Shown here in pieces: positions 11,271 to 36,035 of a DNA stretch of 64,000 nt (its first letter is position 1; every line of letters begins with the position of its first letter). The DNA is from Spartobacteria bacterium (lineage in GTDB: Bacteria; Verrucomicrobiota; Verrucomicrobiia; Chthoniobacterales; UBA10450): contig PNAA01000025.1 of assembly GCA_003169975.1 (NCBI GenBank), positions 75,700-139,699 on the forward strand, read 5' to 3'. Under the pieces are notes generated by a model, which ran no database searches, was not told where the DNA came from, and was given only the letters and a program-made list of their open reading frames with translations. A program made the position numbers and the translations under genes.

Positions 11271-11301
11271 GGAATGTTAGATGTTCGATGCCTGATGTTT
11301 T

Positions 11302-13731: not shown

Positions 13732-13737
13732 ATAAGA

Positions 13738-13768: not shown

Positions 13769-13813
13769 GGGTCATCCCGCGCCTGCGGGAGAAGCATGCG
13801 TTAGATTTTGTTT

Positions 13814-16246: not shown

Positions 16247-16253
16247 GGAAGTT

Positions 16254-18674: not shown

Positions 18675-18699
18675 AAGATATTGTCGTTAGGCGAGGGTT

Positions 18700-21159
18700 T
18701 CATTCCGAGCGCAGGGCAATAATGGGATCGACTCGCGCGGCGCGGCGTGCCGGCAGCCAGGCCGCGAAAAAAGCCACCGCCGCCATCAGGAGCACGATGG
18801 CGCCGAAGGTCAGCGGGTCCCACGCGCCCACTCCGAAGAGCAGGGTGTTAAGCAAACGTGTGGCGGCGACGGCGCCGATCAGCCCGATCCCGACGCTGAT
18901 CGCGACCAGCACCATCGCCTGGCCGACGATGAGCCAGAAGATGGAAGACTGTGCCGCGCCCAGGGCGATCCGGATCCCGATCTCGTTCGTCCGCTGCGCG
19001 ACGGAATAGGCCATCACACCGTAAATGCCGATGGCGGTGAGGAGGAGCGCGGTCCCGGCGAAGATCGAGAGGAGAAGGGCGTTGAAACGCGGCCGGGCGA
19101 GCGAGCGCGAGATGTAATCCTCAAAGACCCTTACACTCGTTAGGGGAATATTCGGATCGACCGCGGCGAGTTGCGCGCGAATCGCCGCAGTCAGGCTGGC
19201 GGGATTCGCGACCTTGGTGCGCACGACGAGGGTCACGCGGTCGAACGGAATCTGCGTCTGCGGCAGATACATCTCGGGCGTGTCTTCGTTGCGCAGCGAG
19301 CGGTGTTTCACATTGCCGACCACGCCGATGATTTCGCGCATTTTTGGTTTCTCATCGCCGGTGCTGAAACCGGGCGTGATCTGTTTGCCGATCGCGTTTT
19401 GTCCGGGGAAATACTTGCTCGCGAAGAGTTCGTTCACGATCACGACCGGCGCGGTATCGAACGCATCGTGCTCGTCGAAAACCCGGCCCTGCCGCACCGG
19501 AATGCCCATCGTCTTGAAGTAATCCGTCCCGGCGACCCGCGCCGGCGCGGCGGCCCGTTGACCTTCCGGCAGCGGATGATCCGCGAGGTCGAAATCCGTT
19601 ACCATATTGCTCGAGCTCAAGGGCAGCGGCATGATCGTGCTCGCCGCTTCCACGCCCGGGAGGGCGCGAATCTTCGGCATCAACTGCTGGAAGAACGCGA
19701 TGATGTTTTCGTTCTTCGGATAGGCCGATCCCGGCAAGTCGAAGCGCGCGGTGAAGAGACGATCCGGGCGCAAGCCGGTCGGCACCTGGCCGAGCCGCGC
19801 GAAACTTTGAATGAGCAGTCCCGCGCAAATCAGGAGGACGAGCGCGAGCGCCACTTCCGCCATGACGAGAGCGTTGCGCACCCGGCCTTTGTGTCCGCCG
19901 TCGCCGCCCGTGCGCATGCCACTTTTGAGGGCGCTATTGAGATCGATGTGCGAGGCCTGCCAGGCCGGGACGAGCCCGAAAATGACGCCGGTGACGAGGG
20001 AGACGAAAAGGGTGAAGGCGAGGACCGCGGCATCGAGCTGGATGTCGCCGATGCGCGGAATATTTTGCGGGATCGCGTGGATCAACCCGGCGGTTCCCCA
20101 CTGCGCGACGAGCAAGCCCAAGCCGCCGCCGAGCGCGGAGAGCACGACGCTTTCGGTGAGCAGTTGCCGTACGATGCGCCCGCGGCTTGCGCCTAACGCC
20201 GCGCGTAAGGCGATCTCCTTGCCGCGGACCGAGGCGCGGGCGAGCAGAAGATTGGCGACGTTCGCGTTCGCGATGAGGAGGACGCAAACAACCGCGCCGA
20301 ACAAAACATAGAGCGCTGTCCGGACATCGCCGATCAGCTCCTCGCGCAACGGTTTCACGATCGCGCCGAAATAGGAATTGGTATCGGGATATTGCTTTTC
20401 GAGATTCGCGGCGATGCCCGAGAGATCGGCCTGTGCCTGCGCGATCGAAAAGCCGGGCTTGAGTCGGGCGATCGCTTCGAGGGTGTGGTTGCCACGCTCT
20501 TCGGTCATCGGCTTTAGCCCCTCCGAGTTCGAGGCGTCTTCGGCGATCGTCACATAGAACTCGATCGACTCCGTCTGGATCGGGAATTGAAAGCGGGCCG
20601 GCATCACGCCGATAACCGTGTAGGGCCGGCGATCGAGCACGACCGTGCGCCCAAGCGCATTTTTCTCGCCGCCGAAATGCTTCTGCCAAAAGTCATGGCT
20701 CAGGATGACCTTGAACCCGCCCGGGCCGCCCCCGGCCTGCTCGTCGGCGCGGGCAAATCCGCGCCCGATGGCTGGCTTGATCCCGAGGACGTCGAAGAAT
20801 TCGGCGCTGCACTTCACTTGGAGGAAGCTTTGCGCGCCGTTCGCGTCGGTGAACGCGACCGTCTGGTCGCGATAAACCGCGCTGCTCGCAAGAGTGCGAT
20901 TCTGTCTCCGGAAATCGAAAAAGTCGGGATAGGAGAGCGAGCCGAGCTGGTCGCGCGGCGTGCCGTCGTGCGTGTTGGTGTTGCCGAAGGCGATCAATTG
21001 TTCGGGCGCGGGAAAGGGCAGCGGCTTGAGGAGAACGGCATTGACGACGCTGAAAATGGCGGTGTTGGCGCCGATCCCGAGGGCGAGCGTGAGCACGGCG
21101 ATGAAAGTAAAGCCGGGCGATTTGCGGAGCTGACGGAGAGCGAAGCGGAGGTCGTTCAT
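18700..21159 (-). CDS. MacB/FtsX-type orphan permease 6
   Basis: 819 residues, starting MNDLRFALRQLRKSPGFTF. The layout is the duplicated periplasmic/FtsX one, with LLIANANVANLLLARASVRGKEIALRAALGASRG in the first FtsX block and AQRTNEIGIRIALGAAQSSIF in the second. It ends PARRAARVDPIIALRSE. The first periplasmic domain has a small Gly-rich insertion (ADEQAGGGPGGFK). It is separated from permease 7 by 143 bp that contain the remains of another permease. Confidence 0.93.
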   Translation of the reverse strand: MNDLRFALRQLRKSPGFTFIAVLTLALGIGANTAIFSVVNAVLLKPLPFPAPEQLIAFGNTNTHDGTPRDQLGSLSYPDFFDFRRQNRTLASSAVYRDQTVAFTDANGAQSFLQVKCSAEFFDVLGIKPAIGRGFARADEQAGGGPGGFKVILSHDFWQKHFGGEKNALGRTVVLDRRPYTVIGVMPARFQFPIQTESIEFYVTIAEDASNSEGLKPMTEERGNHTLEAIARLKPGFSIAQAQADLSGIAANLEKQYPDTNSYFGAIVKPLREELIGDVRTALYVLFGAVVCVLLIANANVANLLLARASVRGKEIALRAALGASRGRIVRQLLTESVVLSALGGGLGLLVAQWGTAGLIHAIPQNIPRIGDIQLDAAVLAFTLFVSLVTGVIFGLVPAWQASHIDLNSALKSGMRTGGDGGHKGRVRNALVMAEVALALVLLICAGLLIQSFARLGQVPTGLRPDRLFTARFDLPGSAYPKNENIIAFFQQLMPKIRALPGVEAASTIMPLPLSSSNMVTDFDLADHPLPEGQRAAAPARVAGTDYFKTMGIPVRQGRVFDEHDAFDTAPVVIVNELFASKYFPGQNAIGKQITPGFSTGDEKPKMREIIGVVGNVKHRSLRNEDTPEMYLPQTQIPFDRVTLVVRTKVANPASLTAAIRAQLAAVDPNIPLTSVRVFEDYISRSLARPRFNALLLSIFAGTALLLTAIGIYGVMAYSVAQRTNEIGIRIALGAAQSSIFWLIVGQAMVLVAISVGIGLIGAVAATRLLNTLLFGVGAWDPLTFGAIVLLMAAVAFFAAWLPARRAARVDPIIALRSE

Positions 21160-21169
21160 TGGGCAGATT

Positions 21170-21281
21170 TCATTCGGCTCGCAGCGTCACGATCGGATCC
21201 AGGCACGCCACCGACCACCGCCAGCGCCATTTTCTCCGCCACCGGCGTCTTGAGGACGTTGCTTTCTTGCGCTCGACATGG
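21170..21281 (-). pseudogene. Relic of a further MacB/FtsX permease (C-terminal fragment)
   Basis: The minus strand at 21170-21199 reads Asp-Pro-Ile-Val-Thr-Leu-Arg-Ala-Glu-stop, the exact family terminus. Just upstream, in another frame (21204-21275), it reads RAQESNVLKTPVAEKMALAVVGGV. That aligns with GAQKSDVLKMVVAEGMTLAVIGV of permease 5. The roughly 50 residues that should lie between these blocks are deleted and the frame is shifted. The fragment has no start of its own. It shows that the array has lost at least one member. Confidence 0.8.
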
Positions 21282-21302
21282 TGTTCTTTATTCGTTAGGC
21301 AA

Positions 21303-23756
21303 TTACTCGGCACGCAGGGTAATCATGGGATCAACGACCGCCGCGCGGCGGGCTGGAATCCAGCCGGCCAGCGCCACCGCGACCGAAAGAACAATCGTCC
21401 CGCCGAGCCAGATGAGCGGCGCGACGGCCGGAAGATCGGCCCAGTAATGACTCGCGACCTCTATTCCGGCCCAGGCCGCCGCTCCGCCCACGACGATTCC
21501 TGACGCCAACAGTCGTCCCGCCTGCGAAGCGACCAGGCGAATCAACGACGCGGCGGTCGCGCCCAGCGCCACGCGAATGCCAAACTCCCGCGTCCGTCGT
21601 GTCACCTGCAGAGCGAGAAGGCCATAGACGCCAATGGAGGCGAGAACGAGTCCGAGCGCGCCAAAGAGCGCCACGAGGGCGAAAACGAAACGCTCCGTCA
21701 CCCACGATTCTGCGGCGGCGGCCTCGAGCGAGATGAGATCGTAAGCCGCGAGTCGCTTGTCCGCGCGCGCCAGGGCACCCCGCACGGTCGCCTCAAGAGA
21801 TTTCGGCTCGCCCGCGCTCTCCACCACGAATGTCATTTCGTCGCCACCGCTCGCGAGCCAGCGCGACAGCGGCAGGCAAACCGTCCCGACGACTTCGCCA
21901 TCGTCCGGATCGGCGATCGCCTTGGTGTCCGCGACGACCCCGACGACCGTGAACCAGGGCCGGGGACTATCGAGGCGGCCGGATTTTACTCTCTTGCCTA
22001 ACGGATCCTGGCCGGGCCAAAAACGGCGGGCGAATGATTCGTTAACGATGCAGACCGGCGTGGAATCGACGCGATCGGTTGCGGCAAAATCGCGCCCGCG
22101 CAGGAAGCGCTGGCCAATCGTCGTGAAATATCCCGGCAACGTCCCGCGCATGTAGGCGTAGTAAGCCGCGCGCGGTTCCGACGGGTGACCGCCCTCGGGC
22201 ACGCAAGCCATCAGATCACGCGCCGCTTCCATCGGCGCGGGCGCGGTGACGCTCGCGGAGCGGACTCCGGGCAGGGCGCGCAGTTCTCCGAGCGTGGTGT
22301 CGATCGTGCGCGCCCGTGCATCCCGTGAGGTGAAGAGCCGATCGGACAACATCGCGTTGAAGACGAGCCGGTGTTCGGTGGCAAAGCCCCAGGGTTCGTG
22401 CACGATTTTGTAAAAATATTGCGTGAGCGTGAGGCTGCCCATGAGCAGAACCGCCGCGATCGCGATTTCGATGACGATGAGGCCGCCGAGCAACCGCCGT
22501 GTGCCGCGATCCAGCGTCGCTCCGCGGCCGATGCTTCCGAGCGAACGCCGCAAATCTGTCCGCGCTGCGCGCCACGCCGGGAGCAGACCGAAGCCGACGC
22601 CGATGAGCAGCATCGCACCCGTGGCAAAACCAAAGACGGGCCAGTCGAGTCGAACACCGTAATCAAATTCGCGGATTGCGCTGCCCGTCGCGTCCGCGCC
22701 TTCAGGACTGAGCGCGACCAGCGCGGGCGTAAGCCAGCCCGCGACGAGTAATCCGAGCGCCGTCCCGAAGGCAGCGAGGACGAGCGTTTGCACGAGTCCT
22801 TCCCGAATGAGGCGACCGCGCGTGGCACCGAGCGCGGAGCGCAAGGCCATCTCCGCGTCCCGCTCGACCACGCGGCCGAGCATCAAGCCGGCAAAGTTTG
22901 CTGCCGCAACGAGCAGCGCACAAAGGGCCGCCCCCGCGATGAGCAGAAGCTTCGGCCGGAGATCCATGATGAAGCTGTCGCGTAGCGGAATGAGATGGGC
23001 GCGCGGCGCGTTGTTCGGATCGGGCGCCGCTCGATTGATCGCCGCGCACATCCGGCGGACGGCGGCATCCGCTTGCGCAATGGTGATGCCCGCCCGGAGC
23101 CGCGCCACACCGTAAAGATAGTGATTGGGCTGACCGGTCGCGGCGAAATTGAGGGCGAGCGGCAACCAAATTTCAGCGCGATATGGATGACGAAACATCT
23201 TCGGCATCACGCCCACGATGGTGTAGGACGCGTCGTCCAGTTTGATCGTGTGTCCCAGGACATCCCCGCGTCCCCCGAGATTCCTTTGCCAGAAATCATG
23301 GCCGACAATCACCACGCGCGGACCGCCCGACTGATCTTCGGCGACCGTGAAGTTCCGTCCGAGCGCCGGCTGCAGGCCAAGGACGTTCAAGAAGTTGGCG
23401 CTGATCCGCGCAGCCGGGAAACTTTGCGCGGACTCGCCAGGGTTCGCGGCGGTGACACTCGCGCCGGTGGCGACGCCGATCCCTTCGAAAATGTCGTGGC
23501 CGTACTCGCGCCATTGCCGAACAGTCTTCTCCGCCAGATTCAGCGAGTTACCGCGCGCTCCGTTTTCTTCGAGTGTCTCGTAAAGCCGCACTAATCGATC
23601 GGCCCGCGGAAAAGGCAGCGGTCGCAGCAGGGCGCTCTCGATGACCGAAAAGATGGCCGTATTCGCGCCAATCCCGAGCGCCAGAGTAACGATGGCAACA
23701 ATGCTGAAACCGGGCGATTTCCGGAGGGAGCGAAAGGCGAAGCGGAGGTCGTTCAT
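21303..23756 (-). CDS. MacB/FtsX-type orphan permease 7 (divergent)
   Basis: 817 residues, starting MNDLRFAFRSLRKSPGF. It shares the architecture but is one of the more divergent members. The first periplasmic domain has LRRLYETLEENGARGNSLN-like sequence instead of the usual blocks. The first FtsX domain uses ALLVAAANFAGLMLGRVVERDAEMALRSALGATRG, where most paralogues have CANVANLLLAR. The second FtsX block (TRRTREFGIRVALGATAASLI) and the end (ARRAAVVDPMITLRAE) are standard. It starts 58 bp after permease 8. The divergent external domains suggest a different ligand or partner. Confidence 0.92.
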   Translation of the reverse strand: MNDLRFAFRSLRKSPGFSIVAIVTLALGIGANTAIFSVIESALLRPLPFPRADRLVRLYETLEENGARGNSLNLAEKTVRQWREYGHDIFEGIGVATGASVTAANPGESAQSFPAARISANFLNVLGLQPALGRNFTVAEDQSGGPRVVIVGHDFWQRNLGGRGDVLGHTIKLDDASYTIVGVMPKMFRHPYRAEIWLPLALNFAATGQPNHYLYGVARLRAGITIAQADAAVRRMCAAINRAAPDPNNAPRAHLIPLRDSFIMDLRPKLLLIAGAALCALLVAAANFAGLMLGRVVERDAEMALRSALGATRGRLIREGLVQTLVLAAFGTALGLLVAGWLTPALVALSPEGADATGSAIREFDYGVRLDWPVFGFATGAMLLIGVGFGLLPAWRAARTDLRRSLGSIGRGATLDRGTRRLLGGLIVIEIAIAAVLLMGSLTLTQYFYKIVHEPWGFATEHRLVFNAMLSDRLFTSRDARARTIDTTLGELRALPGVRSASVTAPAPMEAARDLMACVPEGGHPSEPRAAYYAYMRGTLPGYFTTIGQRFLRGRDFAATDRVDSTPVCIVNESFARRFWPGQDPLGKRVKSGRLDSPRPWFTVVGVVADTKAIADPDDGEVVGTVCLPLSRWLASGGDEMTFVVESAGEPKSLEATVRGALARADKRLAAYDLISLEAAAAESWVTERFVFALVALFGALGLVLASIGVYGLLALQVTRRTREFGIRVALGATAASLIRLVASQAGRLLASGIVVGGAAAWAGIEVASHYWADLPAVAPLIWLGGTIVLSVAVALAGWIPARRAAVVDPMITLRAE

Positions 23757-23814
23757 TGAGTTTGCGGCTTGTGACGGTGGAAAAAATGACGGCGCTCGAA
23801 TGATTCGTTAGGCA

Positions 23815-26199
23815 TCATTCTGCCCGCAATGCCTCCATCGGATTTACCCTGGTCGCGCGATGCGCCGGCAGCAGACAGGCCAGCAGCGCCACCGCCCCGA
23901 GCAGGAGAGTGGTGCAGGCGAAAGTCAGCGGGTCGTGCGCGTTCGTTTGGAAAAGCATCGAACCCATCACGCGCGCGGCGATGAACGTGGCCCCGAGACC
24001 GAGCAAAAGGCCGAGTCCAACCAGTTTGCCACCATGAGTGAGGACGAGCCGAAGCATGTCGCTGCGTTGCGCGCCGAGTGCCATCCGAATCCCGAACTCG
24101 CCGGTCCGCTGGACGACGCTGTAGGCCATCACGCCGTAGATGCCGACGGACGCGATCACGAGCGCGACAACCGAGAAGACCACGAGCAACATCATCGCAA
24201 ATCGCTGTTTCGCGATCGTCTCCGACAGAATTTCTTCGAGCGGGCGAATGGCGCCGATCGGCTGGTCTTTGTCCACGGAATAAACCGCGGGACGCAATGC
24301 GCCCGGCGCTCCGGTCGTGCGCAGGACGACGTTCAGCGAAGAGAACGGTTTCTGCGCGAACGGCTCGTAGGTCTGGCTCGTTGTCTCCTTGTCGACGCCG
24401 TACTGTTTGATGTCACCGACGATGCCGACGATCTGCCGCCAGGTGTCGGGCCCGTTGGTCACGTTGATCCGTTTGCCGATCGGGTCCTCGTTAGGGAAAT
24501 ACTGCCGGGCGAGCGTTTCGTTAATGATCAGGACGCGTGGCGCCTTCGCATTGTCCTGCGCGGTGAAGAGGCGGCCGCGGACCAGGCGGATACCCATCGC
24601 GCGGAAATAATCGGGCGTCACCGCGTAGTAATTGGTGCTCGGCAAATCGCTCGGCGCCATCGGCGGGCGGCCTTCGATATTAAAGCCAAGCACCCAGTCG
24701 CCCAGCAGCGGCAGGGTATGAGTGAGACCAACGGCCTGCACGCCGGGCAGCGCGCGCAAGCGTTCGAGGAGCGCATCGGCGAACGCCACTTGCTGCTCGT
24801 CCTGCTCGTATTTTTTCTCCGGGAGCGCGAGGCGCAGCACGGTGGCATTGGCCGGGTTGAATCCGGGATCGACGTGGGTCAGCCGCATGAAGCTGCGCGC
24901 GAACAGGCCGGCCCCGCCTAACAACACCAGCGCGAAGGCGACTTCGATCACGACCAGCGCGCCGCGCAATCGGCCGCGGGTATCGGTCGATCCGCGCGAG
25001 CCTTGCTTCAGTGCTTCGTTGACGTCGGTATGCGCGGCGAGCCAGGCCGGCGCGACGCCGAAAACCACACCGGTGAGAACGCTGAGCGCGAGGGAAAAGA
25101 AAAGAACCGTCGCGTCGAGATGAATGTCGGCGGCGCGCGGGAGATCGGGAGGCGCGAGCGCCAGCAAAACGTCGAGGCCCCAGCGGGCCACGAGCAGACC
25201 GGCCGCGCCTCCCAGCAGGGCGAGGAGGACGCTCTCGGTCAACAGTTGCCTAACGAGCCGCGCACGGCCGGCGCCGAGCGCGGCGCGAATGGAAAGCTCG
25301 CGCCGTCGCGCCGTGGCCCGCGCGAGGAGGAGATTGGCGATGTTTGCGCACGCGATCAGGAGGACGCAACCGACCGCGCCGAGGAGGGTGTAGAGGACCG
25401 CGCGCACATCGCGCACGCTGTAATCGAGCATCGGCATGACAAAGACGCCCCAGCCTTTATTGGAGTCGGGATATTGCTTCGCGAGCTGGGCTGTGAGCAG
25501 CTTCAATTCGGCGTTGGCCTGGGCGACGCTCACGCCGGTTTTCAAGCGCGCGGCTACCTTGAGATAATGCGCGCCGCGCTCCTTGTTGCTCCGCTCCTCC
25601 GCGCTGAAGGCCATCGGCGTCCAGACGTCGACTTGGCTCGCCTGACCGAAATCCGGCGGCGCGACACCGACGACGGTGTACGTCTCGCCGTCTAGTTGCA
25701 CCGAGCGCCCGATGATTTTTTTGTCGCCGCCGAAAACGCGTTCCCAAAACGGATTGCCCAAGACGACAACGTGATTTTTGCCGGGCACGTCTTCCTCCGG
25801 CAGAAAGGTTCTACCAAGGACCGGATGAACGCCGTAGACATCGAAGTAGTGCGCGGTGGCTTTGACCTCGATGAGCCGTTGCGGCTCACCCTCACCGGTC
25901 AGGTTAATCTGCGAGCCGCTGTAGGCGGCGATCGCGGAATACAATTTCGTCTGTTTCTCCCAGTTGAGATAGTTCGGCGGCGAAACGGAAAATTCCGGGA
26001 ACTGCGGCAACTGCGTTTCGCGGATGACGACGATCCGATCCGGCTGCGGGTAATCGAGCGGCCGCAGGAGGACGCCGTTAACGACGGAGAAAATCGCAGC
26101 GCACGCGCCGATCCCGAGGGCGAGCGTCAGGATCGCGATCGCGGCAAAGCCGGGCGATTTGCAAAGCTGGCGAATGGCATAGCGGAGATCGGCCGGCAT
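23815..26199 (-). CDS. MacB/FtsX-type orphan permease 8
   Basis: 794 residues, the shortest intact member, starting MPADLRYAIRQLCKSPGF. Duplicated periplasmic/FtsX layout with LLIACANIANLLLARATARRRELSIRAALGAGRA and VQRTGEFGIRMALGAQRSDML; the end is HRATRVNPMEALRAE. The second periplasmic domain is slightly shorter than in the paralogues. It begins 26 bp downstream of the TSGG-repeat gene, with the octamer (coding strand GCCTAACGA) a few bases before the start codon. Confidence 0.93.
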   Translation of the reverse strand: MPADLRYAIRQLCKSPGFAAIAILTLALGIGACAAIFSVVNGVLLRPLDYPQPDRIVVIRETQLPQFPEFSVSPPNYLNWEKQTKLYSAIAAYSGSQINLTGEGEPQRLIEVKATAHYFDVYGVHPVLGRTFLPEEDVPGKNHVVVLGNPFWERVFGGDKKIIGRSVQLDGETYTVVGVAPPDFGQASQVDVWTPMAFSAEERSNKERGAHYLKVAARLKTGVSVAQANAELKLLTAQLAKQYPDSNKGWGVFVMPMLDYSVRDVRAVLYTLLGAVGCVLLIACANIANLLLARATARRRELSIRAALGAGRARLVRQLLTESVLLALLGGAAGLLVARWGLDVLLALAPPDLPRAADIHLDATVLFFSLALSVLTGVVFGVAPAWLAAHTDVNEALKQGSRGSTDTRGRLRGALVVIEVAFALVLLGGAGLFARSFMRLTHVDPGFNPANATVLRLALPEKKYEQDEQQVAFADALLERLRALPGVQAVGLTHTLPLLGDWVLGFNIEGRPPMAPSDLPSTNYYAVTPDYFRAMGIRLVRGRLFTAQDNAKAPRVLIINETLARQYFPNEDPIGKRINVTNGPDTWRQIVGIVGDIKQYGVDKETTSQTYEPFAQKPFSSLNVVLRTTGAPGALRPAVYSVDKDQPIGAIRPLEEILSETIAKQRFAMMLLVVFSVVALVIASVGIYGVMAYSVVQRTGEFGIRMALGAQRSDMLRLVLTHGGKLVGLGLLLGLGATFIAARVMGSMLFQTNAHDPLTFACTTLLLGAVALLACLLPAHRATRVNPMEALRAE

Positions 26200-26225: not shown

Positions 26226-27236
26226 CTACTGCTGCGCAGTTTGTTTGTCAGCGGAGACGATCTCGATCGAACCGGCGCTGCTGCGCAGGACGAGTTTCGT
26301 GCCGCCGCCGTTCAACGTGCCCTTGAGCGAATCGCTCTCGGTGCTGCTCCTTGAGATGGGCAAATCGCTCCGCACGCGGCCCGCACTGGTCTCGGCGTCG
26401 ATCGTTAGGGCGGCGTTCGCTGGCGTAAGCACCGTGATGTTGCCACCGGAGGTTTCCAGTCGCACATCACCGGCGACGGGCGAGGGGAGAATGGCGGAAA
26501 CCGATCCGCCGGAGGTTTCGGCGCTCAGCTTTCCGTTGATGCTGCCGAGCCGCAATTTGCCGCCGCTGCTCTCTACTTTCGTGTCGCCGACGCGGTTCAG
26601 CACCGTGACGTTGCCACCTGAAGTATCGACGTTCAATTTGCCGCGGCCGCCGGTGACTTCGATCCGGCCGCCGCTGGTATCGAGATCGGTCGTGCCATCG
26701 CAATCCTTCACCGTGATATCGCCGCCGCTCGTGTCGGCGTGAATCTCACCGTGGATTTGGCCGAAATTCAGGTCGCCCCCGCTGGTGTCGACCTTCACCT
26801 CACCCGTGAGGCCGTGAGCGGAAACGTCGCCGCCCGAGGTATCAAGATCGAGGTTGAAATTGGACGGGACGCGCAGGGTGTAGCGAGCGTCGGTCCGGGA
26901 GTGACCGAACATTCTCCAAAGCTGCGAGCCTAACGAATCGCGTTTGTGGATGGCGCGCACGATGACCTTGTCGCCCTCGGTGGTGATCGTGACCGGAACC
27001 GCCTTAAAGTATTCCTCCTCCTTTTCCTTGGAGGAGGCCTGGATTTTCCGGTGGACATCGACGACGACCTTGTCGTTCTCGCCCGGTGCGACGTCGATCG
27101 AGCCAAAGTCAACGTCGACGACCAGTTTGCCACCCGGTTTGGCGGCACGCGTTTCGTGAATGTTTTCTTCCGTCGCCGCCGCCGCGCCGAGCACGGTGAC
27201 GATGAGGAAGGCGGATATCAGGATTGGTTGTTTCAT
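26226..27236 (-). CDS. Exported DUF4097-like TSGG-repeat protein
   Basis: 336 residues with a signal peptide (MKQPILISAFLIVTVLGAAAA). From about residue 125 it consists of eight or more repeats of 17-22 residues. Each is centred on (D/E)TSGG followed by a beta-strand-like hydrophobic pair, as in DTSGGDVSAHGLTGEVKV. This is the pattern of DUF4097/DUF2807 putative adhesin folds, predicted to form a right-handed beta-helix or stacked sheet outside the inner membrane. It sits inside the transport operon, 24 bp after the second ATPase gene and 26 bp before permease 8. It could therefore be a periplasmic or outer-membrane partner or an envelope-stress sensor; that role is inference. Confidence 0.87.
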   Translation of the reverse strand: MKQPILISAFLIVTVLGAAAATEENIHETRAAKPGGKLVVDVDFGSIDVAPGENDKVVVDVHRKIQASSKEKEEEYFKAVPVTITTEGDKVIVRAIHKRDSLGSQLWRMFGHSRTDARYTLRVPSNFNLDLDTSGGDVSAHGLTGEVKVDTSGGDLNFGQIHGEIHADTSGGDITVKDCDGTTDLDTSGGRIEVTGGRGKLNVDTSGGNVTVLNRVGDTKVESSGGKLRLGSINGKLSAETSGGSVSAILPSPVAGDVRLETSGGNITVLTPANAALTIDAETSAGRVRSDLPISRSSTESDSLKGTLNGGGTKLVLRSSAGSIEIVSADKQTAQQ

Positions 27237-27260: not shown

Positions 27261-27941
27261 TCAGTGCACAATCCAGCCGTCGCGCAGCTGGATGATGCGG
27301 TTGCCGTAGGCGGCGTTCGTTTCGGAATGCGTGACCTGGATGATGGTGGTGCCGTCGGAGTTCAGCCTTTTGAAAAGCTGCATGATTTCCTCGGCCTGGC
27401 TGGAATGGAGATTGCCGGTCGGTTCGTCGGCGAGAATAAGCTTCGGGCTCGCGATGACGGCCCGCGCGATGCTGACGAGCTGCTGCTGGCCGCCGGAGAG
27501 CTGACGCGGATAAAGATCTTTTTTCCCGACAATCGAAAAGCGATCGAGCGTGTCCGCGACGAGCGCCGTTCGTTCTGATTTGCTGTAACGGCGATAGGAG
27601 AGTGGGATGTCGAGGTTCTCGTAGACCGTCAGGTCATCGAGCAGGTTGTAGTTTTGGAAAACGAAACCGATCTGCTCATTGCGCAGGATGGTGCGCTCTT
27701 TCGGTTTCAGGCGGTGGACCGCCGTTTCGTCGAGGTAATACTCACCGGTCCAGCCGACGTCGTGCATGCCTAACAAGTGCAGGAGAGTCGATTTCCCGGC
27801 GCCGGATGGTCCCATCACGGAAACGAAATCGCCATCCTCGACCGTGAGATCAATGTCGCGCAGGATGTAGACGAATTGCTGTTTGCCTAACGGGTAGGAA
27901 CGCTCGATGTGTTCGAGCCGGATGAGTGGGCCGGTCTTCAT
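27261..27941 (-). CDS. ABC transporter ATP-binding protein (LolD/MacB type), second copy
   Basis: 226 residues. Walker A is GPSGAGKST, the Q-loop is [10 protein letters not shown], the signature is [14 protein letters not shown] and Walker B is LILADEPTG. Two positions differ from the usual LolD/MacB pattern: the residue after LSGGQQQ is Leu instead of Arg, and the D-loop reads NLHSSQ instead of NLDS. The other ATPase in this operon has both canonical forms. The start is one base after the stop of permease 9, so the two are probably co-translated and work together. It most likely energises permease 9 and possibly the orphan permeases downstream. Confidence 0.94.
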
Positions 27942-27942
27942 A

Positions 27943-30390
27943 TCAACCTCGGCCGAGGGCGATCATCGGGTCGGCGCGAGTGGCGCGATGAGCCGGGATG
28001 TAACTGGCGAGAAACGCGACCAGGGTAAGGGTGAGGGTGACGACGAGGAAGGTCGCAAGGTCGAGCGCGCTCGTGCCATAGAGCGCGGAGCGCAGGACCG
28101 AAGTGCTGAGCAAAGCGACGATCAAGCCGAGCAGAGTGCCGGCCGCAATCAAAGCGCCGGCCTGGAAAATCACCAGTCGCAGGACGTCGGAGCGCTGCGC
28201 ACCGAGCGCCATCCGGACGCCGATCTCATGCGTCCGCTGGACGACGAGGAACGACATCACGCCGTAGATGCCGACGGCCGCGAGCACGAGCGCGACGCCC
28301 GCGAAAACCGCGAGGAGCACGACCGAAAGCTTGCGCGGCGCGATCGAGTCCGCGACGACCTGCTCGAGCGTGCGCACATGAGCGATCGGCTGCGCGGGAT
28401 CGATTGCCTGCACTTCGCGCCGGATCGCGCTCGTGAAGCTGCTCGGATCCTGCGAGCTGCGCACGGCGAGGATGACGGAGGAATAAGGCACCTGCGCGAC
28501 CGGGACGTAGAACTCGGGCTTCGCTGGTTGATCGAGCCCCCGATGGCGCAGGTCGCCGACGATTCCGACGATCGTCGAAATGGCCGGGGTGGTAAAAGGA
28601 ACCCGGATGCGTTTGCCCAGCGCGCTTTCGTTAGGCCAATAGCGCTCGGCGAGCGCACGGTTGATGATGACAACCGGCGGAGCGTCCAGTTTGTCGGCCG
28701 CGGTGAAGAAGCGCCCCTGCACGAGCGGAATCTCCAAGGTCCGGAAATAATTGGGCGAGACGATGCGATCTTCCTCATCCGGTCCGGGATGCGCGTCGTC
28801 GCTCATTCTTCCTTCGATCCCGAACGAGCAGTCGCTGTTAATGCCGCTCATCGGCAAGATGGTCGCTAGGCCGATCTGGCTTACCCCGGGCAGACTGGCG
28901 ACGCGGCGCTCGAGCTCGGCGAAGAAGGCGGCTTGTGTTTTGTTGTCCGGGTAACGCTGCGCGGGCAGGGAAATCTCCGCGGTCAGGACGTTTTTCGCAT
29001 TGAAGCCTGGGTTGACATTTTCCAGCCTAACGAAACTCTTGAGGAGCAATCCCGCGCCCGTCAGGAGAACGAGAGCGAGGGCAACTTCCGCGACGACCAG
29101 AACGTTGCGCAGCCGGTTATGCCGGCGGCTCGAAGTCGATCCGCGGCCGCCTTCCTTGAGCGCTTCGGTCAGGTCCGGCTTGCCGCTGGCGAGCGCGGGG
29201 ACGAGGCCAAAAATCAGGCCTGTGCCGATTGCAATCGCGAGAGTAACGAGCAGGACGGTGCCATCGATTCGGACTTCGCTCAGGCGCGGGATGGTCTGGG
29301 TGCCGAGCGTCTTTACAAGATCGATCGCCCAGATGGCGAACAGGACGCCCACTGCTCCGCCGAAAATCGCCAGGACGACACTTTCCGTCAGGCCCTGGCG
29401 GAGCAGGCGCGCGCGGCTCGCGCCGACGGCGACGCGGATGGCCATTTCGCGCTCGCGCGCGGAAGCCCGCGCGAGCAGCATGGTAGCGAGGTTGGCGCAG
29501 GCAATGAGGAGGACGAGCGCGACCGCACCGAGCAGGATGAGGAGCAGCGGCTTCATTCCGCCGATGACCTGCTCCTTGAGCGGATAAAGCATCGCGCCAA
29601 AGCTTTCGGTCTGCGGATAATTATCTTTGAACCGCGGCCGCATCGCCCGCACGACGGTTTCGATTTCAGCCTGGGCCTGCTGCGCGGAAACGCCGGGCGC
29701 AAGCCGGCCGATCACGCCGTAGCTGCGCGAGCCGCGTTGTTTCATTTCCGCATCGGTGAAGCCCAGCGGCTGCCAGATGTCGGCCTGCTCGCCGAACTGC
29801 GCGCCCGTGATGTTGAAGAGCGGGAGGGGGAATTCAAAGCTCGCGGGCATGATGCCGACGACGGTGAAAGCGCGACCGTCGGCCAGCACCCTGCTCCCGA
29901 GGACGCGCGGATCGCGATCGAATTTCCGCCGCCAGAGCCGCTCACTGATCATGACAACGTCGTTGCGGCCGACCGCGCATTCCTCCGCGCGAAAAATGCG
30001 ACCGCGGATCGGTTGCACGCCTAACAATGGAAACAGATCGGCCGAAACCGTCGCGCCGAAAATGCGTTCCGCGACATCGCCCTCGGAAAGATTGTAGGTG
30101 GCGGTGGTGAAGGCGGCGAGCTTCTCGAAGCTTTTGAGTTGGGCCTTGTAGTCGAGAAATTCCGGCGGCGAGACCGGGATGGCGTCGAGGTGCTGGGCCT
30201 TGAAATGCTCGAAGAGGAGAACGAGGCGGGCCGGATCCTCATAAGGCAGCGGCTTGATGAGGAGCGCATTGACCAGGGTGAAGACCGCGGTCGTCGCGCC
30301 GATCCCGAGCGCGAGGGTGAGAATGCCGACGAGCGCGAAGAGCGGATTTTTAATCAGCTGCCGGAGCGCGAAGCGAATTTCTGAGATCAT
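27943..30390 (-). CDS. MacB/FtsX-type permease 9 (paired with ATPases)
   Basis: 815 residues, starting MISEIRFALRQLIKNPLF, the promoter-proximal member of the array. It has duplicated periplasmic and FtsX domains with LLIACANLATMLLARASAREREMAIRVAVGASRA and VQRTHEIGVRMALGAQRSDVL. It ends in HRATRADPMIALGRG, which departs from the ALR(A/S)E ending of its paralogues. It is the only permease flanked by ATPase genes on both sides. The ATG overlaps the stop of a small upstream reading frame in an ATGA arrangement, a translational-coupling pattern. Confidence 0.93.
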   Translation of the reverse strand: MISEIRFALRQLIKNPLFALVGILTLALGIGATTAVFTLVNALLIKPLPYEDPARLVLLFEHFKAQHLDAIPVSPPEFLDYKAQLKSFEKLAAFTTATYNLSEGDVAERIFGATVSADLFPLLGVQPIRGRIFRAEECAVGRNDVVMISERLWRRKFDRDPRVLGSRVLADGRAFTVVGIMPASFEFPLPLFNITGAQFGEQADIWQPLGFTDAEMKQRGSRSYGVIGRLAPGVSAQQAQAEIETVVRAMRPRFKDNYPQTESFGAMLYPLKEQVIGGMKPLLLILLGAVALVLLIACANLATMLLARASAREREMAIRVAVGASRARLLRQGLTESVVLAIFGGAVGVLFAIWAIDLVKTLGTQTIPRLSEVRIDGTVLLVTLAIAIGTGLIFGLVPALASGKPDLTEALKEGGRGSTSSRRHNRLRNVLVVAEVALALVLLTGAGLLLKSFVRLENVNPGFNAKNVLTAEISLPAQRYPDNKTQAAFFAELERRVASLPGVSQIGLATILPMSGINSDCSFGIEGRMSDDAHPGPDEEDRIVSPNYFRTLEIPLVQGRFFTAADKLDAPPVVIINRALAERYWPNESALGKRIRVPFTTPAISTIVGIVGDLRHRGLDQPAKPEFYVPVAQVPYSSVILAVRSSQDPSSFTSAIRREVQAIDPAQPIAHVRTLEQVVADSIAPRKLSVVLLAVFAGVALVLAAVGIYGVMSFLVVQRTHEIGVRMALGAQRSDVLRLVIFQAGALIAAGTLLGLIVALLSTSVLRSALYGTSALDLATFLVVTLTLTLVAFLASYIPAHRATRADPMIALGRG

Positions 30391-30607: not shown

Positions 30608-31306
30608 TCAGGCGGCGATTTTGTCCTCGACAACCCGGCCGTCGAACAGGTGGATGGTGCGGTCGGCGTGCTGCGCGAAGCGTGCGTCGTGGGTGACCAT
30701 GCAAATGGTCGCCCCGCCGGCGTGCAGTTCCTTCAACAGGTCCATGACCGCTTCGCCGTTGCGCGAATCGAGGTTGCCGGTCGGTTCGTCGGCGAGGAGA
30801 ATGGCCGGTTTCCCGGCGAGGGCGCGCGCCACCGCGACGCGCTGCTGCTGGCCGCCGGAGAGCTGGCTCGGCAAGTGTTTCGAACGATGGCCCATGCCGA
30901 CCCGCTCGAGCGCTTCGTTGACGAAGGCCTTGCGTTCGCCTGCCGGCATGCCGCGGTAGGTCAACGGCAGTTCGACGTTTTCAAAAACAGTCAGGTCGCC
31001 GATGAGATTGAAGCTCTGGAAGATGAAACCGATCTCGCGGTTGCGAATCCGCGCGCGCTCCGGGAAAGAAAGGTTCGCGACCTCGCCGTTCTTGAGCGTG
31101 TAGCTGCCGCCCGATGGCGTGTCGAGCAACCCGAGGATCGAGAGGAGCGTCGATTTTCCGCACCCCGACGGGCCGGCGATGGAGACGTATTCGCCGGTGC
31201 GAATGTCAAGGTGAATGCCGGACAAGGCGTGAGTCTCGACTTCGTCGGTGAGGAAGACTTTGGTGACACTGTCGAGGTGAATCAGGGTGTGGTTTCCGTT
31301 GTTCAT
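30608..31306 (-). CDS. ABC transporter ATP-binding protein (LolD/MacB type), first copy
   Basis: 232 residues with all canonical motifs: Walker A GPSGCGKST at about 45-53, Q-loop FIFQSFNLIGD, signature LSGGQQQRVAVARAL, Walker B ILLADEPTG, D-loop NLDS and switch His in VTHD. It matches the ATPases that drive MacB/LolCDE-type mechanotransmission permeases. It lies between the adaptor gene (39 bp upstream) and permease 9, the classical adaptor-ATPase-permease order of MacAB-like exporters. The N-terminus starts at the ATG at 31306. Confidence 0.95.
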   Translation of the reverse strand: MNNGNHTLIHLDSVTKVFLTDEVETHALSGIHLDIRTGEYVSIAGPSGCGKSTLLSILGLLDTPSGGSYTLKNGEVANLSFPERARIRNREIGFIFQSFNLIGDLTVFENVELPLTYRGMPAGERKAFVNEALERVGMGHRSKHLPSQLSGGQQQRVAVARALAGKPAILLADEPTGNLDSRNGEAVMDLLKELHAGGATICMVTHDARFAQHADRTIHLFDGRVVEDKIAA

Positions 31307-31345: not shown

Positions 31346-32671
31346 CTAGTTGAGGCGAATCCGGTCGTGCGAATCGTAGGCGCTGGTGTCGGATAGGATG
31401 ACTTGGTCGCCCGCGTTCAGGCCGCTCAGGATTTCGATGGTGTTGACCGAGCTGCGGCCGAAATGGACCGGGGTGCGAATGGCTTCGCCGCTCGACGTCA
31501 ATTTGAAGACGCCGACCGTTGCTCCGTCCTGGGCAAACGCGGGCCGGCCGACGTAGAGCACGTTGTCGAGGCGCTCGAGTTCGATCGTTCCGTCCACGCT
31601 CAAATCGGGGCGCGCGCCTTTCGGGAGGGGGCCATCGAGCGCCACGTCGACGGTGACAGTCCCTTGTTCAACCGCGGGGTCGACCCGGATGACATGGCCG
31701 GGAATGATCCCGTTGCGCGTGTCGATCGAAGCCGGCTGGTTGATCTGAATATCCTTCGCCTGCGTCTCGGCGATTTTGATCTGTGCCTTTAGTTTCGTCG
31801 GGTCGGCGACGCGGGCGATGTTCGTTCCCGGGATGACGCGCTGGCCGACTTCCACCGGCAGTTGTTGCAGCACGCCGGTCATGCCGGCGCGCACGTGCAG
31901 GGCCTCGACTTCCCGCACGCGCATTTCCGCCGAGGCTTTGAATTGTTCGACCGCGGCCTGCTTGGCGGCGAGTTGCGGCTCAATCGAGTCCTGGGCAAAA
32001 GCGAGACGCTTATCCTCGATCGCATCACGATTGGCCAGTTCATCTCTTTTGATGATCGAGGTCTTGTAGGCGAGATCGGCGATGAGCCCGCTCTTCTTTA
32101 AATTTTCGTTCGTCTCGGCTTCCATTTTGGCCTGCTGATATTCCGAGTGAACCTGGGCGGTGGTCGATTCCTGATTGAGCAGCTCGCGCTGGAGCGTGGC
32201 CCGGAGCGTCGTCAATTCCGCGTCCGCGCCTTTCTCCTGGAGCTCGGCATCGCGCGCCGCCTGCTGGAGGTCCGGACTGGAGAGTTCCACGATTAACGTG
32301 TCGGGCTCGACATGCGCGCCCGGCCTAACGACGATCTTTTCGACCCGGCCATCTTTCGCCGCGGCGATCCAGCGAATGTCTTCCGGCACGAGTGTGCCGA
32401 GGCCGCGCACCTGGCGGAGCATCGGCCCGCGCTTCACCGTGTCGATCCAGACCGAAGCGCGATCGACGCTCATCGCGGCGGGTTTTAGCCGCGAGATGAC
32501 CACCGTGATGACGATAAGGCCGAGCACCGAAGCGGCGGCGATGATTAGCCGCCGCTTCTTCTTCCGGCGGGCAACATCGGGGCGCGGGACATCCATGGAC
32601 GAAGTGACCGGTGTGAAGCCCGGAGTTTGCGCGGGCTGAGCGCCGGCAATCACTTCGAAGCTTCTTTGCAT
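31346..32671 (-). CDS. HlyD/MacA-type periplasmic adaptor (membrane fusion protein)
   Basis: 441 residues. A basic cytoplasmic tail (RRKKKRR) precedes a single membrane anchor at about residues 43-61. A split lipoyl/beta-barrel region follows (GRVEKIVVRPGAHVEPDTLIVEL and later GVLQQLPVEVGQRVIPGTNIARV), around a long alpha-helical hairpin rich in Glu, Gln and Ala. The C-terminal membrane-proximal domain ends SAYDSHDRIRLN. Such adaptors link an inner-membrane ABC permease to an outer-membrane channel. No TolC-like gene is in the window. The gene is the second of the sigma-54-dependent run, 18 bp after the small membrane protein. Confidence 0.93.
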   Translation of the reverse strand: MQRSFEVIAGAQPAQTPGFTPVTSSMDVPRPDVARRKKKRRLIIAAASVLGLIVITVVISRLKPAAMSVDRASVWIDTVKRGPMLRQVRGLGTLVPEDIRWIAAAKDGRVEKIVVRPGAHVEPDTLIVELSSPDLQQAARDAELQEKGADAELTTLRATLQRELLNQESTTAQVHSEYQQAKMEAETNENLKKSGLIADLAYKTSIIKRDELANRDAIEDKRLAFAQDSIEPQLAAKQAAVEQFKASAEMRVREVEALHVRAGMTGVLQQLPVEVGQRVIPGTNIARVADPTKLKAQIKIAETQAKDIQINQPASIDTRNGIIPGHVIRVDPAVEQGTVTVDVALDGPLPKGARPDLSVDGTIELERLDNVLYVGRPAFAQDGATVGVFKLTSSGEAIRTPVHFGRSSVNTIEILSGLNAGDQVILSDTSAYDSHDRIRLN

Positions 32672-32689: not shown

Positions 32690-33007
32690 CTAAAGCACGC
32701 CGGCGTGGTGGATGAGGGTCGCGACCGCCTGGACGCTGTTCACGATCGGCAGGACCGCGGTCAGGATCAGCGCGGCGAAGACGCCGGCTTCCACCGCGAA
32801 ACTGCGCGGTGCTTCGTCGGCGAAATAGCGGTTGCTGATTTCCAAGAAGGAAGGGCCGTGGAATTTCACCGGTGTCCCGCAGCCGCCGAGCAACGTCGAG
32901 CTCTGATAGCTTTGGTCGGTTTGCGGAAAACTCCGGCCGTGGCGCGAAGCGCGCGGGTCGGATGCATGCCGCTGGTTGAGATCTTGGATTTGAGGTGTGG
33001 TTTTCAT
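32690..33007 (-). CDS. Small membrane protein at the head of the transport operon
   Basis: 105 residues, not a family I recognise. The N-terminal 55 residues are polar. From about 70 there is a hydrophobic stretch (EAGVFAALILTAVLPIVNSVQAV) compatible with one membrane span. Two Cys-Gly/His residues (GGCGTP and IHHAG) are notable. It is the first gene after the -24/-12 promoter, which lies about 80 bp upstream, and is followed 18 bp later by the adaptor gene. Its position suggests a small accessory or sensing subunit, but function is unknown. Confidence 0.65.
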   Translation of the reverse strand: MKTTPQIQDLNQRHASDPRASRHGRSFPQTDQSYQSSTLLGGCGTPVKFHGPSFLEISNRYFADEAPRSFAVEAGVFAALILTAVLPIVNSVQAVATLIHHAGVL

Positions 33008-33088: not shown

Positions 33089-33104
33089 TGCAATGCCCGT
33101 GCCA
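33089..33104 (-). promoter_or_regulatory. Sigma-54 (-24/-12) promoter for the transport operon
   Basis: The minus strand reads TGGCACGGGCATTGCA. This matches the sigma-54 consensus TGGCACG-N4-TTGCW at every defined position, with the essential GG and GC at the right spacing. Transcription would start near 33077 and run into the small membrane protein (ATG at 33007), leaving a leader of roughly 70 nt. An NtrC-type activator and its kinase are encoded immediately upstream. Confidence 0.88.
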
Positions 33105-33202
33105 GCCGAATTTTAATTTTGTAAGTAGTTGCACTACAATTCTTTGTGTGGACACTCGATTTTTCCACCGCGCCGCTTTTGCCTCAGCGATGGGATTACT
33201 TT

Positions 33203-33218
33203 GTCCCGATTGCGGGAC
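33203..33218. promoter_or_regulatory. Candidate activator-binding site (enhancer)
   Basis: GTCCCGATTGCGGGAC is a perfect 6-bp inverted repeat with a 4-bp spacer, centred about 105 bp upstream of the -24 element. That distance is typical of bacterial enhancer-binding protein sites. A second dyad, GTAGT-TGC-ACTAC at 33125-33137, lies much closer. The assignment to the adjacent NtrC-type regulator is inference from position and symmetry. Confidence 0.45.
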
Positions 33219-33297: not shown

Positions 33298-34644
33298 CTA
33301 ACGAGGCAGGCGCAGGAGCGCTTCGCAGCCGGAACGATCGCTGCGGTTGGCGAGCGTGAGCGTGCCCCCGTGCGCTTCGGCGATTTGCCGGCTGAGCGCG
33401 AGGCCGATACCCGAGCCACCCGGTTTGGTGGTGAAAAATGGGACGAACACATTCTCCGGATTCATGATGCCCGGGCCTTCGTCCCGCACGAAGACTTCCG
33501 CGTAGTCGGCCAGTTCGCGCCAGCCGGCCGTCACTTTCCCGCCGGTTTCGAGTGCGGCGTCGACTGCGTTGTGCAGGATATTGATGAGCAGCTGCTCAAT
33601 CTGCGCCGCATCGGCTGCGATCGCGATCGCCGGCCCTTCGGCGAGCCGCACCGCGAGCCGCGTCTCCAGGTCGATCACCCGCCTGACGAGTTCGCCAAGG
33701 TTGATCTCCTCTTTCTGCGGCGGAGGCAGGCGGGCGAGGCGGGCGTAGGCCTGCATGAAGCGGCTGAGCGATTCCGCGCGAGCCGCGATCACGTTCAAAC
33801 CGCTCCGCGCATCGTCGCGCCAATCGGCCGGCGGCGGATCGCGCCGGAGCAACGTCTCTAGGCTCCCGGCAATCGACTTGATCGGCGCGAGCGAGTTGTT
33901 CATCTCGTGCCCGAGGACTCGCACGAGACGCTGCCACGCTTTGCGCTCCTCTTCGCGCAGGGTTCGGCTCAGATCGGTCAGCACGAGCAACTCGTGGGGT
34001 AAACCGTGTTCCCGATAGCTGCTCCTCCGCACGCCCCAGCGGCCGGAAGCTCCCGGGAAATTCAAGGTCAGCGGCGCGTCTTCATCGGCGTCGAGGCAGA
34101 CGGCCAAACCGAGATCGCTTGCCCGGCGGCCGAGCAGCTTGTCGATCGGTTGGCGCAACAGGTTTTCGCCGGCGCGATTGACCAGGCGGAGCCGTCGTTC
34201 GGGATCGAAAGTAAAAACGGCCACGTCAATTTCCGCCATGATCGTGCGGAGCAGCGCCGTTGCCTCGAACGCCCCGAGGCGCTGCACGCGCAAGGTTTCG
34301 CCCAACTGATTGATCTCGAGCAGCACTTCGCCGAGCGCATCGTCGGCCCGCGCGCCGCGCGCCCGAATCGAGTAGTCGCCTTCGCGCAGCGCGGCGAGCA
34401 GGTTGCTCATGGTCTGCAGTGGACGAACGATGCGTTCCCGCGCGCTGGCGAGAAAACCCAATGCGCAGACGGCGATGATGAGGGTGAGCGTCCAATCGAC
34501 CTTGGCGCTGAAGTCGCCGAACCAGAGCAGCGCCAGCGCCACGATCATGGCGGGCGCGCACGCGCCTAACGTCAGCCAGGTCAGCCGGTTTTCGTGGGAA
34601 AGGCGCGGCCGCCCCCGCAATTTCTGATTTGCCTGGCTCGCCAT
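33298..34644 (-). CDS. NtrY-like sensor histidine kinase
   Basis: 448 residues. Two membrane segments at about 25-43 and 50-66 (WLTLGACAPAMIVALALLWFG; LTLIIAVCALGFL) are followed by a HAMP-like linker (RIVRPLQTMSNLLAALREGDYSIRARG). A PAS-like domain and the H-box VLGHEMNNSLAPIKSIAGSL come next. The ATPase domain carries N-box INILHNAVDAA, G1 DEGPGI and G2 GGSGIGLALSRQIAEAHGG. HEMNNSLAPI is the NtrY/NtrB-type phosphoacceptor motif. A good ribosome site (GGAGAG) precedes the ATG. With almost no periplasmic loop between the helices, it probably senses a membrane or cytoplasmic cue. The partner is the regulator 44 bp upstream. Confidence 0.94.
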   Translation of the reverse strand: MASQANQKLRGRPRLSHENRLTWLTLGACAPAMIVALALLWFGDFSAKVDWTLTLIIAVCALGFLASARERIVRPLQTMSNLLAALREGDYSIRARGARADDALGEVLLEINQLGETLRVQRLGAFEATALLRTIMAEIDVAVFTFDPERRLRLVNRAGENLLRQPIDKLLGRRASDLGLAVCLDADEDAPLTLNFPGASGRWGVRRSSYREHGLPHELLVLTDLSRTLREEERKAWQRLVRVLGHEMNNSLAPIKSIAGSLETLLRRDPPPADWRDDARSGLNVIAARAESLSRFMQAYARLARLPPPQKEEINLGELVRRVIDLETRLAVRLAEGPAIAIAADAAQIEQLLINILHNAVDAALETGGKVTAGWRELADYAEVFVRDEGPGIMNPENVFVPFFTTKPGGSGIGLALSRQIAEAHGGTLTLANRSDRSGCEALLRLPR

Positions 34645-34688: not shown

Positions 34689-36035
34689 CTAGAGTCCATA
34701 GTGCTGGAGACGCCGGTAGAAGGCGCTCCGGCTCAGGCCTAACGACTCGGCGGCTTTGCGCGCATTGCCCTCGTGCCGGGCGAGCGCCTTCTTGATCAGG
34801 AAAGCCTCCACTTCCTCCAGGCTCATTTCTTCCAGTCGCGGGGAGCCGTTCGTTGTGCTCGTTAGGCCAAGATCGTTCGGCTTGATCTGCGCGCCTTGCG
34901 CCATCAGGACGGCGCGCTCGATCACGTGATCCAGTTCGCGCACGTTCCCCGGATATTCGTGCCGGATGAGCGCTTCATGGGCGGCCGGCTCGAACCCGGT
35001 GAGTTTTTTCCGATAACGTTCGGCGTGCTGCCGCAGGAAATGCGCGGCGAGGGGGGCGATATCTTCCCGCCGCTCGCGCAACGGCGGCAGCGCCACCTCG
35101 ATCGTGTTCAGGCGAAAGAGCAAATCCTGCCGGAACCGTCCGGCCGCGACCTCCTCCTTCAGGTTGGAATTCGTCGCCGAAATGATCCGCACATTGGCGT
35201 GCAAAGTGCGCGACGAACCGACGCGCTCGAACTCGCCCGTCTCGATCACCCGCAACAATTTCGCCTGCTGACTCATCGGCAGGTTCGCGATCTCATCGAG
35301 AAAGAGGGTGCTTTCGTCGGCCAGTTCGAAGCGTCCCGCGCGATCCGACTTCGCGTCGGTGAACGCTCCCTTCACGTGGCCGAAGAGTTCGCTCTCAAAC
35401 ACCCCTTCGGACAAGCCGCCCATGTTCACCGTGATCATGATCTTGCTCGCCCTCCTGGAGAGCAAATGGAGCGCGCGCGCCACGAGCCCTTTGCCGGTCC
35501 CGTTCTCGCCCGTGATCAGGACATTGGCGTCCGAAGGCGCCACGCGGGTGATCAATTCGATCACGGGCCGCATCTGGGGCGAGTTGGAAATGATGTCCGG
35601 CATTTTCCCCCGGAGCAGTTCATTCTTCGCCTCGAGCTGCTGGCTTTTGCGGAGCGCGCTGCCGAGCGCGATCTGGGTGCGGACGATGGCGAGGAGGCGA
35701 TCGTTGTCCCACGGCTTGGGGACGAAATCGCGCGCCCCGAGTTTCATCGCTTCGACCGCGAGATCGATCGTAGCCCAGGCAGTCATGACCACGATGGGCA
35801 ACGTCTCATCGCTCGCCTGAATACGCGGGATGACCTCCAGCCCTTCCTGTCCCGAGGTCGTATCGCGGGTGTAATTCAGATCCATCATGAGGAGCGCGTA
35901 GTTGCGTTTCTCGAGCGAATTGAGCATCGCGCCTAACGATGTTACCGTGTCCGTTTGGTAACCTTCGCCCTTGAGCAGGATGCGCAGGGCCTCGAGCACA
36001 TCGGGCTGGTCGTCGGCGATAAGGATGCGGCTCAC
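34689..36035 (-). CDS. NtrC-family sigma-54-dependent response regulator
   Basis: 448 residues from a GTG start. A receiver domain (LIADDQPDVLEAL, phosphoacceptor Asp in LLMMDLNYTRD, conserved Lys in PKPW) is followed by a sigma-54 interaction AAA+ domain. That domain has Walker A GENGTGKG, the sigma-54 contact loop GAFTDA and Walker B LFLDEIANL. A Fis-type helix-turn-helix closes the protein (HEGNARKAAESLGLSRSAFYRRL). It is transcribed with the kinase. The perfect -24/-12 promoter downstream is the obvious target, making the transport operon inducible by phosphorylation of this protein. Confidence 0.96.
   Translation of the reverse strand: MSRILIADDQPDVLEALRILLKGEGYQTDTVTSLGAMLNSLEKRNYALLMMDLNYTRDTTSGQEGLEVIPRIQASDETLPIVVMTAWATIDLAVEAMKLGARDFVPKPWDNDRLLAIVRTQIALGSALRKSQQLEAKNELLRGKMPDIISNSPQMRPVIELITRVAPSDANVLITGENGTGKGLVARALHLLSRRASKIMITVNMGGLSEGVFESELFGHVKGAFTDAKSDRAGRFELADESTLFLDEIANLPMSQQAKLLRVIETGEFERVGSSRTLHANVRIISATNSNLKEEVAAGRFRQDLLFRLNTIEVALPPLRERREDIAPLAAHFLRQHAERYRKKLTGFEPAAHEALIRHEYPGNVRELDHVIERAVLMAQGAQIKPNDLGLTSTTNGSPRLEEMSLEEVEAFLIKKALARHEGNARKAAESLGLSRSAFYRRLQHYGL

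Follow-up and report, generated by a model that had tools for sequence, protein, structure and literature searches.

A predicted NtrC-type sigma-54 regulon for an ABC exporter with duplicated permeases in a soil bacterium of the Verrucomicrobiota

Introduction

What switches on a long run of ABC exporter genes, and how much of the run answers to one switch? The window (the whole stretch of DNA that was analysed, 64,000 nucleotides) belongs to a soil bacterium related to Udaeobacter. It carries such a run on its minus strand, with a sensor kinase gene and a response regulator gene on the same strand ahead of it, and a candidate sigma-54 promoter between the two groups (Table 1). Here we address whether this site is a promoter, which activator would act on it, how far its control may reach along the array and whether other genes share it.

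Table 1. Features of the array locus and their coordinates in the window.
Feature	Position	Strand	Evidence
NtrC-family response regulator, GTG start	34689..36035	-	PF00072, PF00158, PF25601, PF02954
Sensor histidine kinase	33298..34644	-	HATPase_c above its cut-off; PAS_8 and HisKA under theirs
Predicted enhancer (UAS) palindrome GTCCCGCAATCGGGAC	33203..33218	-	9-10/10 match in 67/70 loci, at a near-fixed distance
Third predicted enhancer half-site TCCC	33192..33195	-	8 bp past the palindrome core (after GGGA)
Putative sigma-54 -24/-12 promoter TGGCACGGGCATTGCA	33089..33104	-	Exact consensus; site of at least 9/12 in 71/78 evaluable related loci
105-aa single-TM protein, first ORF of the run	32690..33007	-	Equivalent position occupied by homologues in 44 related loci
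Periplasmic adaptor (HlyD/MacA/DarC-like membrane fusion protein)	31346..32671	-	PF16576, PF13437; TIGR01730 over cut-off
ABC ATPase 1 (DarD/MacB/LolD-like)	30608..31306	-	PF00005; NF038007 top match, below cut-off
ADOP-family duplicated permease	27943..30390	-	TIGR03434, 973.7 bits, over cut-off
ABC ATPase 2	27261..27941	-	PF00005
DUF4097 / LiaG-like protein	26226..27236	-	PF13349; NF049997 below cut-off
Eight further ADOP permeases, tandem	6209..26199	-	TIGR03434 whole-genome search; ORFs

Results

The candidate sigma-54 promoter and its conservation

The site reads 33104 to 33089, and re-checking the sequence returned exactly these coordinates. A first-pass annotation of the same DNA had described a consensus-perfect -24/-12 element here, about 80 bp before the first gene. 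Both points hold: all 12 defined bases of TGGCACG-N4-TTGCW are matched, and 81 bp separate the end of the site from the ATG of the first ORF. The GG and GC dinucleotides are 10 bp apart, and numbering them -25/-24 and -13/-12 puts the predicted +1 near 33078, some 70 nt ahead of that ATG. TGGCACGNNNNTTGCA occurs once in the window and never in 100 dinucleotide shuffles. Across the whole genome (4.47 Mb), the pattern TGGCACGNNNNTTGCW gave 4 exact matches, this site included, and its reverse gave 0. With one mismatch allowed, the count was 35 versus 62 for the reversed control, so near-matches are uninformative by themselves, and what counts is exactness and conservation. The annotation had also made its proposal depend on a sigma-54 gene, and the genome encodes rpoN (PF04552, E 5.5e-57, over cut-off).

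The other exact matches in this genome are L001, L002 and L003. L003 (G000:C37:89237) lies shortly 5' of a gene whose product may be secreted or lipoprotein-like, and L001 has no codirectional gene nearby.

Regarding conservation, we found a site matching 11 or 12 of the 12 bases upstream of the adaptor orthologues of 29 other genomes and of the window, that is, in 30/30 loci; this set includes the window itself (G000) and partly overlaps the 80 named loci of a wider search, so its count is neither independent of the one that follows nor addable to it. The wider search returned loci mostly from Chthoniobacterales and Opitutaceae and a small number from Acidobacteriota, and left 78 loci evaluable for the promoter, L068 and L087 being too short. 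Ahead of the adaptor gene, a -24/-12 site reaches 9/12 or more in 71 of the 78 loci and 11/12 or more in 52. Shuffled sequences reached 11/12 in 3 of 1560 cases and 9/12 in 228 of 1560; taken alone, weak sites are therefore not significant. No small ORF intervenes between the site and the adaptor match in most Opitutaceae loci, where the site stands 20-42 bp ahead of that match. The order regulator-kinase-promoter-adaptor-ATPase-ADOP is conserved among related loci.

Seven of the 78 loci showed no site of at least 9/12. In two of them (L093 and L105) an ADOP gene stands ahead of the adaptor, and the remaining five (L118, L122, L129, L134 and L140) are from Acidobacteriota; in these, except L129, a related regulator gene was found downstream of the ATPase and not upstream of the adaptor. 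A TGGCAC element is visible in L122, L134 and L140, with a -12 part that looks degenerate. On this comparative evidence, the site at 33089-33104 is very probably a sigma-54 promoter.

A predicted enhancer at a near-fixed distance

Further 5' we detected a GTCCC-N6-GGGAC palindrome followed by a third half-site, TCCC; together they span 33192-33218 and had gone unremarked in the first-pass annotation. The palindrome centre lies at about -133 from the predicted +1. Among 70 evaluable loci, 67 match the palindrome at 9-10/10, 2 at 8/10 and 1 (L131) at 7, and shuffled controls gave at least 9/10 in 4 of 1400 cases. Where the palindrome scores 8/10 or better (69 loci), it lies 111-115 bp from the start of the -24 element in 68 cases, and the one exception has 124 bp. 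The strict triple half-site pattern TCCCRNNNNYGGGAN{5,12}TCCCR has a single match in the window's genome, and the reversed control has 0. Palindrome, third half-site and fixed spacing point to a predicted enhancer for an upstream activator. The conservation of alignment columns between enhancer and promoter also led us to suspect an IHF-like element.

Regulator and sensor kinase

The regulator combines a receiver, a Sigma54_activat AAA+ domain and a Fis-type HTH, and gave long matches to solved NtrC-family regulators. The NtrC-type layout and the GAFTDA loop that had been ascribed to it are thus borne out, and this sigma-54 contact loop, a variant of GAFTGA, is invariant in the 48/48 orthologues compared. 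In its treatment of loop variants, PMC4641369 places GAFTDA among those expected to keep activity. The regulator missed the NCBIfam equivalog cut-offs for NtrC, AtoC, ZraR and NtrX, with a best score of 378 bits versus 714 (AtoC). As for the kinase, hydropathy predicts two TM helices (~24-42 and ~49-67) and almost no periplasmic loop.

Predicted members of the regulon in other Verrucomicrobiota

The enhancer, an interval of 94-104 bp and the -24/-12 element were joined into one composite pattern, strict enough that weaker sites escape it. Of 240 Verrucomicrobiota genomes scanned, 14 contain it, at 35 places in all, and 0 contain its reverse. From the 30 places that were fetched and examined, 27 lead into exporter or regulator genes: the adaptor operon in 10 (the window included), ADOP/MacB permeases in 7, the ATPase operon in 4, OEP/TolC genes in 2 and the regulator gene in 2, with 2 further loci where another gene leads and an ADOP follows it. 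The 10 adaptor-operon loci are partly circular, because operons of this kind supplied the pattern; no such circularity affects the loci of permeases, ATPases, OEPs and the regulator. The other 3 sites precede an M13 peptidase (L143) and a TonB-like protein (L152) or are likely due to chance (L156). L143 (G014:C2:6222) may represent an extra member of the regulon in one relative.

In Opitutaceae-like genomes the enhancer is also found ahead of genes for ADOP/MacB permeases, for ATPases, for TolC-type proteins and for the regulator itself. ADOPs with their own enhancer and promoter occur at L158, L159, L165, L166, L169 and L171 (Opitutaceae-like genomes and one family member), and OEP genes belong to the same predicted regulon in the relatives L164, L170 and L172. 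At L151 and L162 the enhancer precedes a regulator gene of the same family (response regulator match of ~68-69% identity); composite sites in that position, 2 of the 30 examined, would amount to autoregulation. In the window, unlike at these two loci, we saw no minus-strand sigma-54 site ahead of the regulator gene. At L151 and L162 a small hydrophobic ORF also stands in front of the regulator gene.

The conservation and the upstream enhancer together back the link, drawn in the first-pass annotation, between the kinase-regulator pair and the array. From these comparisons it follows that the pair, the promoter and the array would form one dedicated regulon. The predicted promoter and enhancer, their fixed spacing, the gene order and the predicted membership of the regulon are all read directly from the sequence.

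A probable second unit in the window's genome

With one mismatch permitted, the triple half-site was found at 19 places in the window's own genome, and the reversed control at 6. A sigma-54 site scoring 10/12 or better stands at the appropriate distance in only 2 of the 19, one at the array and one on contig C18. At both, exactly 87 bp separate the third half-site from the -24 element. The C18 site precedes the gene for a 71-aa single-TM protein (G000:C18:4610-4822, L192), which is probably the second unit of the regulon in this genome. Among 30 loci encoding homologues of this protein in relatives, the copy of this genome included, the same enhancer and promoter are present in 19 and lacking in 11. 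In the window's genome almost nothing beyond the array operon and this one distal gene seems to answer to the regulator. Since the array and C18 sites each stand before a small TM-protein gene, a small membrane protein would be the first product of both units. The 105-aa and 71-aa families look unrelated, neither of them scoring over a Pfam cut-off, and we do not claim homology between the two (hhalign probability 6%).

Gene content of the array and extent of the transcript

The array contains an adaptor, ATPases and MacB_PCD/FtsX permeases; no OEP/TolC gene was seen within it. It holds 9 of the 13 ADOPs that score over the TIGR03434 cut-off (622.3 bits) in the genome, counting the one at 27943-30390. 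The 105-aa protein gave no Pfam or NCBIfam match. A DUF885 protein gene (4349-6184, same strand) begins 24 bp past the last ADOP and could end the same transcript. Between the predicted +1 and the first ORF there is a leader block, TTTGAATCC-N13-GCATCTCA (33029-33063, minus strand), present in 36 of the 45 leaders used. We considered an RNA switch in this leader and discarded it: RNAalifold returned no consensus structure (0.0), and a subgroup has no such block. Searched against Rfam, the leader gave only one sub-threshold match.

Along the proximal genes, the intergenic gaps are 18, 39, 217, 1, 24 and 26 bp, and a single transcript over this part is likely. Distal gaps range from -80 to 143 bp, and the extension of the same transcript over the remaining genes is plausible. 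It is possible, if not the reading we prefer, that the sigma-54 promoter is real and drives only the proximal set (the small ORF, the adaptor and ATPase 1, perhaps also ADOP1 to DUF4097), the distal ADOPs having promoters of their own. The 217-bp gap before ADOP1 and the 143-bp gap between 21159 and 21303 inside the permease run would suit such a division, as would the ADOPs of relatives that have an enhancer and promoter to themselves (L158 and the others named above) and the terminator-like matches of the distal half, which number 27 versus a shuffle mean of 17.9 (sd 4.4). Against it, all array genes are codirectional and the remaining gaps do not exceed 58 bp, sigma-70-like matches are at chance level in total, a weak one at 30413-30386 counting the other way, and the run contains no second enhancer and promoter. 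The promoter- and terminator-like scans do not discriminate between these readings, and a transcript reaching over the whole array is something we infer.

Probable control of the operon by the adjacent two-component system

We consider it highly likely, from the sequence comparisons above, that a sigma-54 promoter heads the exporter operon and is switched by the adjacent kinase and regulator through the enhancer. A bacterium often has several activators, and one could argue that a different NtrC-type protein of the cell acts on this promoter; the co-occurrence of the enhancer and the adjacent regulator across families, together with the same enhancer before the same-family regulator gene in L151 and L162, makes this improbable. 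Near-consensus matches are common in this GC-rich genome, but we reject the reading that the -24/-12 match is due to chance and that the operon has a sigma-70 type promoter, a most remote prospect given that position and spacing are conserved, along with the enhancer, in 71/78 related loci.

Under control by the adjacent pair, sigma-54 RNA polymerase would wait in a closed complex at the promoter. The kinase would sense a membrane-related signal and phosphorylate the regulator, which would then bind the enhancer and loop to the promoter, and the GAFTDA loop and ATP hydrolysis by the regulator would bring about promoter opening. The transcript would carry, in this order, the genes for the small TM protein, the adaptor, the ATPase, the ADOP, the second ATPase and the DUF4097 protein, and probably those of the eight further ADOPs. 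In Opitutaceae-like relatives the same enhancer would drive permease, ATPase, TolC and regulator genes at separate locations. In this scheme the phosphorylation of the regulator, its direct binding to the enhancer, the reach of transcription, the signal and the exported substrate are what we infer. It is established that sigma-54 polymerase stays silent unless an activator acts on it, and it is from this general mechanism that the operon would be off until the signal arrives. The activator-dependent sigma-54 control foreseen in the first-pass annotation finds support at the start of the operon in the site, the enhancer spacing, the regulator and kinase and rpoN.

Discussion

The picture that emerges is that of a predicted NtrC-type two-component sigma-54 regulon for an ABC exporter with duplicated permeases, and this kind of regulon is already known. 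With activators of the NtrC/ZraR/AtoC type it shares the receiver, AAA+ and Fis-HTH domains, the paired kinase and an enhancer ~115-135 bp before the predicted start; it differs from them in having GAFTDA instead of GAFTGA, in scores far below the equivalog cut-offs and in its target, an ABC exporter regulon. The enterobacterial Psp regulon is also sigma-54-dependent, concerns the envelope and comprises one main operon plus a distant gene for a small membrane protein. The layout of the regulon would be similar here, whereas that of the activator is different, PspF being without a receiver domain, and we saw no Psp proteins.

Among the closest known exporters are MacA-MacB-TolC and the darobactin system (DarBCD): the adaptor is like MacA/DarC, the ATPases are like MacB/DarD, and the regulons of relatives include TolC-type OEP proteins. 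Unlike in MacAB and Dar, ATPase and permease are on separate genes and the permeases are of the ADOP type and highly duplicated. The window proteins did not reach the MacA, MacB or Dar equivalog cut-offs.

Regarding prior work, the sections of PMC12316311 (2025) on ABC transporters report predicted sigma-54 promoters enriched before COG0577/COG1136 ABC genes in Opitutia, place FtsX/MacB-type ABC systems under predicted sigma-54 control in Opitutia, Bacteroidia and Gammaproteobacteria, and term this the first evidence for the transporter family. The sigma factor, the transporter class and the bacterial class Opitutia are common to that study and ours. Its approach is PSSM/COG enrichment; the regulator, the enhancer, the operon layout, ADOPs and small TM proteins are not named in the parts that bear on these systems, and neither 'upstream activat' nor 'UAS' occurs in its main text. 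More generally, sigma-54 is tied to the cell exterior in the relevant passages of PMC3162934. In the open-licence papers searched we found none describing this regulator, enhancer or regulon.

ADOP permeases have no ATPase of their own, so the engine that drives them is not evident. A common enhancer that unites ADOPs, ATPases, adaptor and TolC in a single regulon, however dispersed their genes, makes their partnership testable. As a speculation that we hold with little confidence, one dedicated two-component sigma-54 regulon may control tripartite exporters in which a single set of adaptor, ATPase and TolC serves many interchangeable 'orphan' ADOPs, with a kinase that has almost no periplasmic part sensing the state of the membrane or of the transporters, and with the small single-TM proteins, the first product of each sigma-54 unit, as feedback or assembly partners.

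In the parts of PMC7343977 on exporters, the antibiotic tolerance of 'Candidatus Udaeobacter' is linked to MacB-like and other exporters, and a 'Ca. Udaeobacter' genome is reported to contain MacB-like genes, some of them clustered on contig 99. Soil harbours Chthoniobacterales such as 'Candidatus Udaeobacter' in large numbers, and a dedicated switch of the kind predicted here would offer a testable handle on when they produce their exporters.
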